Part shown: in pieces, positions 6,078-54,031 of the stretch
How the letters are laid out: each line of letters begins with the position of its first letter
Numbering within the stretch: the stretch's first letter is position 1
Source: Fervidicoccaceae archaeon
Lineage (GTDB): Archaea; Thermoproteota; Thermoprotei_A; Sulfolobales; Fervidicoccaceae
Assembly (NCBI GenBank): GCA_038878695.1
Contig: JAVZVD010000001.1
Span: forward strand, 310,001-374,000
Direction: 5' to 3'
Length of the DNA: 64,000 nt
The notes under the pieces: model-generated
Told to the model about the DNA's origin: nothing
Seen by the model: the letters and a program-made list of their open reading frames with translations, nothing else
Databases searched by the model: none
Made by a program: the position numbers and the translations under genes

Positions 6078-6144
6078 TAGAACTCCCTCCTCAGCTCAAC
6101 TCGGGCTACGCAAACTCATATTAGCTAGCGAGATGAAACTCTTT

Positions 6145-6210
6145 TTGGATGATGTAGTGGGCAGCCCTTGACCTCCAGAGGAATGATGAGCCTAGCATCA
6201 CTCTGATTTT
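6145..6210 (+). ncRNA. C/D box sRNA candidate, guide to 23S A-loop (U2552)
   Basis: Between rimK and the 6258 gene lies a full box set with textbook spacing: box C ATGATGT (6149-6155, one mismatch), 12-nt guide AGTGGGCAGCCC (6156-6167), D' TTGA (6168-6171), 11-nt spacer, perfect C' ATGATGA (6183-6189), 13-nt guide, perfect D CTGA (6203-6206). The D' guide pairs with 23S at 53648-53658 over 11 consecutive bases, one of them G-U. The fifth base upstream of D' faces T53652, the equivalent of E. coli U2552. A TATA-like CATATTAGC (6117-6125) is about 26 nt upstream. I found no target for the second guide. Confidence 0.75.
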
Positions 6211-6257
6211 ACTGCTCTCTACTCGGGGGACCTGATAAGAGCAACCCGGGGGCTCAT

Positions 6258-6810: not shown

Positions 6811-7419
6811 GTGGGAGTTCTCCGCGATGCTCACGGTCCTACAGCTAACATAGAAAACATAGTAGCGACGGTGACGCTGGAGCACCCACTGGATCTACAC
6901 GAGATAGAGCGCGAGGTGCCTGGAATAGAGTACAATCCCGATCAGTTCCCCGGGCTGGTCTTCAGATTAAATAGGCCTAAAGTAACTGCTCTCATATTTA
7001 AATCTGGAAAAATGGTCGTAACTGGAGCTAAAAATACTCAAGAATTAATTAGAGCAGTCAAAAAGATAATAAAAGTTTTATATGATCATGGAATAAAGAT
7101 CAGAGGTAAACCGAAGATACAGATCCAGAATATAGTCGCCTCGGCTAACTTGGGAGTCGAAGTTAATTTGGAAGAAGCCGCCTACAAGCTCGAAAACAAC
7201 ATGTACGAACCCGAGCAGTTTCCCGGACTGATATACCGTATGAGAGACCCACACGTCGTGCTTCTGATATTTAGCAGCGGGAAGATGGTGATCACCGGAG
7301 CCAAGAGAGAGGGGGAAGTCTTCGAGGCAGTGGAGAAAGTATACGATAGACTCCGAGAGTTAGGATGCATCATAGAGAGGGGCTCTTCGCTGGGGAGAGA
7401 AGAGATAGAATTCTTCTGA
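6811..7419 (+). CDS. tbp: TATA-box binding protein
   Basis: General transcription factor that binds the TATA box and recruits TFB and RNA polymerase. The 202 residues contain the two pseudo-symmetric repeats that make the saddle: repeat 1 about 13-92 ([41 protein letters not shown]) and repeat 2 about 104-183 ([38 protein letters not shown]). The C-terminal tail is slightly acidic, as in many archaeal TBPs. Bases 6985-7095 are strikingly AT-rich with A/T-ending codons, unlike the rest of the gene. Confidence 0.97.
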
Positions 7420-45632: not shown

Positions 45633-45753
45633 TGGCGCCGGGGGCGGGATTCGAACCCGCGCGCCCCGCAGAGGGCAGTGGGTCTCCCTCTTTAGTGAAG
45701 AGCCGGGAACAGGGTCTCGAGCCCACCGCCTTGGTCCGCTCGGCCACCCCGGC
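45633..45753 (-). tRNA. tRNA-Ser (CGA) with 32-nt intron
   Basis: Class II tRNA. Acceptor GCCGGGG/CCCCGGC, D-stem GCC/GGC, anticodon stem GTGGG/CCCAC, loop CTCGAGA with anticodon CGA, long variable arm closed by GCCC/GGGC, T-arm GCGGG-TTCGAAT-CCCGC, discriminator G, encoded CCA. The intron lies at 45684-45715, between positions 37 and 38, the canonical archaeal site; the GAGACCC repeat at both ends leaves a small boundary ambiguity. Box ATTTTAGCGG about 25 nt upstream. Confidence 0.93.
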
Positions 45754-49588: not shown

Positions 49589-49650
<62 letters not shown>

Positions 49651-49850
49651 GCGGCACGGCTGGGAGCGCATTAGCTGTTTTTCGCTGGGACGGGAACCGC
49701 CGCTCTCCGTTGTATAACGGAAGAGTCGGAGAGCGCCTCGAAGCGGGGCCCCGCGCCAGATCTACGCTCATACGCATCGTACACGTCAACCCGGAGCTCT
49801 CGATCTCTCATCTTCGATCGCAGACCGCCCCAGCCGGCCGCCCCGGAGAG
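49651..49850 (+). other. 200-nt insertion (probable intron) in 16S, E. coli about 803
   Basis: The universal sequence GGATTAGATACCCGGGTAG-TCCCGGCTGTAAACG is broken between GTAG and TCC. The insert's ends pair: GGCTGGG (49659-49665 region) with CCCAGCC and GGCGGC with GCCGCC, so the exons are brought together. It has no open frame for a homing endonuclease. The junction is uncertain by 2 nt because AG repeats at both ends. This is how archaeal rRNA introns look. Confidence 0.85.
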
Positions 49851-50112: not shown

Positions 50113-50161
50113 ACACGCCCGTGGCGTCTCATACCCTATCGGGCGCCACGGCGTGGGCGAA
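50113..50161 (+). other. 49-nt insertion (probable mini-intron) in 16S, E. coli about 1068
   Basis: The conserved GCATGGCCGTCGCCAG-CTCGTGCCGTGAGGTG is split after CAG. The insert is a hairpin: CACGCCCGTGGCG with CGCCACGGCGTG, 12 pairs with one bulged base, closed by a 17-nt loop. Its small size fits the mini-introns known from Thermoproteota 16S genes. Whether it is spliced or kept as a longer helix is not visible from DNA. Confidence 0.8.
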
Positions 50162-50418
50162 CTCGTGCCGTGAGGTGTCCGGTTAAGTCCGGTAACGAGC
50201 GAGATCCCCGCCCCTAGTTGCTATCCGGCCCTCCGGGGCCGGAGCACACTAGGGGGACTGCCGCCGTTCAAGGCGGAGGAAGGAGGGGGCCACGGCAGGT
50301 CAGCATGCCCCGAAACCCCCGGGCTGCACGCGGGCTACAATGGCCGGGACAGCGGGTACCGACCCCGAAAGGGGGAGGCAATCCCTCAAACCCGGCCGCA
50401 GTAGGGATCGAGGGCTGT

Positions 50419-50885: not shown

Positions 50886-54031
<3,146 letters not shown>

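Follow-up and report, generated by a model that had tools for sequence, protein, structure and literature searches.

The window, i.e. the whole 64-kb stretch of DNA analysed here from a Fervidicoccaceae archaeon, carries a small RNA locus in the gap 6078-6257, between a gene for a RimK-like ATP-grasp protein on the minus strand and an ORF without an assigned family. No convincing ORF was found in this gap, in agreement with the initial annotation that had described it as gene-free; a 53-aa antisense ORF starting with TTG is the only candidate. The boxes C, D', C' and D follow one another in the canonical order and are separated by guides of about 10-14 nt (Table 1). The initial annotation had read all four boxes as textbook cases, which holds for the perfect boxes C' and D whereas C and D' each depart by one base from their consensus. 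A strict regular expression for this box architecture matched exactly once in the window, and the same pattern was never found in 40 dinucleotide shuffles of its non-rRNA part. Folding of the RNA alone was uninformative (z -0.44). Judged from its sequence, the stretch from box C through box D encodes a complete C/D box methylation-guide sRNA.

Table 1. Coordinates of the sRNA locus, of its predicted rRNA target and of the neighbouring TBP gene in the window.
Feature	Position	Strand	Basis or remark
TATA-like element ATATTAG, weak	6118-6124	+	by eye; ~25 nt upstream of the sRNA
C/D box sRNA gene, likely extent	6145-6210	+	R1 model match and blastn homologues
Core of the sRNA, box C through box D	6149-6206	+	read from the sequence
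Box C, ATGATGT	6149-6155	+	matches RTGATGA except at its last base
D' guide AGTGGGCAGCCC	6156-6167	+	pairs with 23S 53648-53658
Box D', TTGA	6168-6171	+	differs from CTGA by one base
D'-C' spacer CCTCCAGAGGA, 11 nt	6172-6182	+	potential 4-bp hairpin
Box C', ATGATGA	6183-6189	+	perfect consensus
D guide GCCTAGCATCACT	6190-6202	+	degenerate; most relatives have CCTAGTCTCAC
Box D, CTGA	6203-6206	+	perfect consensus
TATA-binding protein (TBP) gene	6811-7419	+	PF00352, 220 bits
Target in 23S rRNA helix 92 (A-loop), GGGCTGCCCGC	53648-53658	+	T53652 (E. coli U2552) is the predicted 2'-O-methyl site

Re-reading of the D' guide confirmed the 11 consecutive pairs with the 23S rRNA gene that had been reported for it, made of 10 Watson-Crick pairs and one G-U. 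This site is the best match of the 12-nt guide across the 16S and 23S genes, and the D'+5 rule points to T53652, a U within the A-loop GGCUGCCCGCC. The Rfam archaeal LSU consensus reads GGcUGUUCgCC at this loop and C53654/C53655 correspond to the CC variant at 2554/2555, a published feature of Thermoproteota (PMC9976906). The loop context, the Rfam consensus and this variant together identify T53652 as the equivalent of E. coli U2552, so the alignment proposed initially is right. The agreement between guide and functional site had also been called unlikely by chance. When random 12-mers were tried, 27 of 3000 gave a run of 11-12 bp from position +1 anywhere in 16S or 23S; the empty shuffles and the conservation across the order described below argue against a chance resemblance.

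Several other features were noted in the window. The 16S gene contains an insertion of about 200 nt at 49642-49842 after GGATTAGATA, likely an archaeal rRNA intron by its position, and further downstream, near 50128-50175, a 46-nt stretch stands where the model has 2 positions. A tRNA match of 118 bases on the minus strand (45636-45753), not reported by ARAGORN, is probably an intron-containing tRNA.

Conservation and synteny of the small RNA

Relatives of the sRNA were found by blastn in the same family (E 1.5e-9 to 1e-5). A sequence-only model, R1, was built from 15 copies, the window's own copy being one of the training rows; its positions 3-66 of 71 match exactly 6145-6210 at 57.6 bits, a score to be read as that of a training row. 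At E<1e-3, and by a hand count of rows, R1 detects orthologues in 145 of the order's 197 genomes. Outside the order, matches were obtained in three families of the same class (f45, f46 and f48, E about 1e-10 to 5e-12) and in one family elsewhere in the phylum (f29). R1 revealed no second copy of the sRNA in the organism's own genome.

The core of the D' guide, GTGGGCAGCC, is invariant in the 15 aligned members and mostly reads GYGGGCAGCC in the other members whose guide was read out; in family f8 and in some f6 genomes the first of the two closing Cs is a T. The slightly divergent box D' of the window, TTGA, is also found in 5 of 6 family relatives. In 101 of 114 distinct members, box D' (NNGA) lies exactly 5 nt 3' of the A opposite U2552. 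Conservation of the boxes in relatives, a check suggested with the initial annotation, is thereby borne out, with boxes, core and 5-nt D' distance recurring across the order and beyond.

Some members deviate at box D'. In two genomes of one genus (G048 and G055, loci L091 and L092), box D' is an ATGA one nucleotide nearer to the guide, where the +5 rule would select G2553 and not U2552, so that the target may have moved by one base. Nucleotide G2553 is methylated in Haloarcula (PMC2584109). G004, the nearest-looking relative, likewise deviates at D'.

Covariation between guide and target is not demonstrable in the order because the 23S target loop is nearly invariant there. Six genomes with the loop GGCTGCTCG (U2555) would require a G-U pair with the guide; the three guides read from such genomes (G012, G070 and G088) all keep the G that forms it, which argues neither for nor against covariation. 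From the guides of G212 (GCGGGCAGCGC) and G240 (GTGGCAGCAA), compensatory changes would be expected in the stem of the 23S A-loop, near 2548-2549 and 2558-2560.

The position of the sRNA in the genome is also conserved. We collected 80 TBP loci from named genomes of relatives (Desulfurococcales, Pyrodictiaceae, Acidilobaceae, Ignisphaera, Staphylothermus, Caldisphaera, Metallosphaera and others), and 60 of them have the sRNA within flanks of up to 3 kb. Common descent, rather than convergence, is the natural reading of this synteny. No remnant of the sRNA turned up when several TBP loci, Sulfolobaceae-type ones among them, were searched by pattern.

The second guide and the terminal stem

In 68 of 114 members the D guide, mostly CCTAGTCTCAC, has a run of 6-7 bp with 23S positions 53695-53701 and is aimed at A2598; in 21 of 114 it is aimed at A2577, through 6-10 contiguous pairs with 53674-53683. 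The two sites are close to the A-loop, within domain V. By this test, the remaining 25 members, the window copy included, fit neither. Two Sulfolobaceae-type loci of family f11 (L135 in G124 and L143 in G166) associate an A2577-type D guide (CAAAGCTCAC and CCCAGCTCAC, respectively) with a different D' guide.

In the window copy, the D guide (6190-6202) has drifted from the CCTAGTCTCAC of the order to CCTAGCATCAC. As CCTAGCATCACT, it forms just four contiguous pairs with each of the A2598 and A2577 sites, and no good rRNA site was found for GCCTAGCATCACT. Elsewhere in the organism's own genome it has no perfect complement and three sites with one mismatch, near which ARAGORN reports no tRNA and Rfam a single one, about 500 bases from one of the sites. 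In a simple fold of the RNA, the altered guide pairs with its own box C.

Outside boxes C and D, the members of the family form a terminal stem: 313 of 456 possible pairs are made, against 210.7 (sd 9.3) when partners are shuffled, a covariation that is supportive but does not translate into a probability because the relatedness of the sequences inflates the count. The pairing is found in the kink-turn register and is far lower when slid by one. In the window sRNA the stem (region 6143-6212) is down to a single G-U. Its D'-C' spacer of 11 nt is another of the features that make this copy the odd one in the family. The D half of the sRNA thus looks decayed in this organism, and since both the D-guide match and the terminal stem are lost, the RNA appears to be retained here solely for its D' guide, a point absent from the initial annotation.

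Distribution of RlmE and of the guide

In bacteria, U2552 is methylated by the protein RrmJ/RlmE, and many archaea also use a protein enzyme. The search for an RlmE homologue recommended in the initial annotation recovered none, either in the organism's own genome (98.3% complete, 5 contigs) or in the 197 genomes of the order. In the former, PF01728 gives one match, at 23.7 bits and below the cut-off, rejected as RlmE since it is a NOL1/NOP2/Sun m5C methyltransferase, and the RlmE model TIGR00438 reaches 16 bits at best. Across the order, the best PF01728 score is 54.9 bits and most matches either have the length of NSUN ORFs or proved on inspection to be other methyltransferases; FtsJ matches below 70 bits were rejected on this ground. 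The top match, L020 of G147 (G147:C32, family f6), is an FtsJ-domain protein with an N-terminal extension that covers half of the profile, and neither its length nor its score is that of RlmE. By comparison, 98 genomes of the phylum sample outside the order encode an RlmE scoring 119-201 bits on PF01728, with most or the whole of the profile covered; one of these that was checked, L064, scores 240 bits on TIGR00438 and is also recognised by PRK11188. The absence of RlmE and the conserved guide together support the earlier suggestion that the mark may be RNA-guided in this organism.

Within the same class but outside the order, all 5 genomes without a true RlmE (f45, f46 and f48) carry the sRNA, whereas none of the 10 genomes with RlmE (f44 and f47) has a full-length match to it. 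Partial matches occur in f44 and f47; the two that were read are not C/D RNAs. In the phylum sample, RlmE is also missing, at the threshold used, from families f18, f20, f22, f28, f29 and f33. R1 has no convincing match in f18, f22, f28 and f33, a weak piece of evidence in such distant lineages because R1 was built from copies within the order. The exchange between guide and enzyme is not perfectly reciprocal, as neither was recovered from these four families. Sulfolobaceae-type genomes (f11) are likewise without RlmE and most of them are also without an R1 match. Overall, the distributions of RlmE and of the sRNA are nearly complementary, which is the most interesting by-product of the analysis. 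A non-exhaustive literature search found no paper on the loss of RlmE across the order or on its linkage to a guide.

Known systems, proposed role and significance

A clear orthologue of the window sRNA is present in G023, which is probably Ignicoccus hospitalis. This species belongs to the set of archaea studied by Dennis et al. 2015 (PMC4644070), so the present sRNA lineage has probably already been seen as RNA. That work reports U2552 guides predicted in 5 of 7 archaea with RNA-seq-defined sRNAs, and agreement of the predicted guide with mass spectrometry for S. acidocaldarius. These guides share the architecture and the target nucleotide of the window sRNA; the window organism lies outside that set and differs by its degenerate D guide. 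For another C/D box sRNA, sR25 of Pyrococcus abyssi, a role in directing methylation of the nucleotide equivalent to U2552 has likewise been predicted (Gaspin et al. 2000, as cited in PMC2584109). RNA-guided methylation of U2552 is already known in archaea, and the window sRNA is very probably a further example. In yeast, the C/D snoRNA snR52 directs 2'-O-methylation of the same nucleotide (Um2921), but within a eukaryotic snoRNP and in a cell where the protein Spb1 can complete the mark, whereas no RlmE was found here. The bacterial RlmE/RrmJ/FtsJ (COG0293) and the Thermus RlmR (COG0566) yield the same product, Um2552, as stand-alone proteins. Rossmann-fold, RNA-guided and SPOUT routes to Um2552 are described in a 2025 paper in which snR52 is named as the guided case (PMC12123411).

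Very probably, the sRNA guides the 2'-O-methylation of U2552 as part of a ribonucleoprotein that would replace the missing RlmE in this organism and in its order. Following established archaeal biology, the RNA would be transcribed and L7Ae would bind its C/D and C'/D' kink-turns, on which Nop5 and fibrillarin would assemble; fibrillarin is encoded in the genome (329 bits). The D' guide would then anneal to the A-loop during maturation of the 23S rRNA, and fibrillarin would methylate the 2'-OH of U2552, which lies opposite the fifth guide position upstream of box D'. The D guide, which in most relatives can pair a few helices away with the A2598 or A2577 region, has lost its rRNA match here.

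Other readings have to be weighed against this one. The window copy could be a pseudogene in decay, derived from the U2552 guide of the order, with U2552 left unmodified or served by another guide. The degenerate D guide and terminal stem, the T at position 7 of box C and the deviation at D' in G004 as well all point that way, but all 12 nt of the D' guide are intact, boxes C' and D are perfect, box D' is the one of the family relatives and R1 finds no other copy in the genome. That the D' guide, C', D and D' are the very parts preserved is not what one would expect of drift, and we consider this explanation unlikely. It is decidedly unlikely that Um2552 is the work of a protein other than RlmE, e.g. 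a SPOUT enzyme resembling Thermus RlmR, with the sRNA redundant or kept as a backup: we know of no such enzyme in this order, and the strong conservation of the guide argues that it is needed, even though RlmR illustrates that unrelated proteins can do the work (PMC12123411) and yeast uses both snR52 and Spb1 (PMC2584109).

The RNA, whose two guides touch helices 92, 90 and 93, might also serve mainly to chaperone the folding of the A-loop and of the neighbouring peptidyl-transferase helices, with methylation secondary. Such a role has been proposed for double guides (PMC4644070), and the D guide can pair with the nearby A2598 or A2577 sites in 89 of 114 members. Nevertheless, the spacing between D' and U2552 is kept with a one-nucleotide precision that methylation needs and chaperoning does not, and the D guide is lost in the window organism, which makes a primarily chaperoning RNA very improbable. 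A fortuitous resemblance with no RNA gene behind it is practically negligible. Although a random 12-mer obtains an 11-12 bp run with rRNA about 1% of the time, the comparative data (conservation and synteny across the order), together with the 40 shuffles devoid of the architecture, refute it. RNA-guided methylation of U2552 by this sRNA is retained as the preferred reading.

A broader proposal stands, in our estimate, at even chances. Sulfolobales in the wide sense, together with the same-class and Thermoproteales-like families, would make Um2552 by an RNA guide only, through one ancient, TBP-anchored sRNA lineage; RlmE and the guide would tend to exclude each other in the phylum, and the A-loop would be fixed as CUGCCCG in the clade. 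If true, this would be a natural exchange in which an RNA guide stands in for a protein enzyme at a single nucleotide. Um2552 is a near-universal mark at an A-site position, among the most conserved nucleotides of the ribosome, made by unrelated systems in different lineages, and an order without RlmE that mostly keeps one syntenic guide is a testable case of the exchange between enzyme and guide. As a TBP-adjacent marker, the sRNA also lets the drift rate of the guides, and of the partner guide, be traced.
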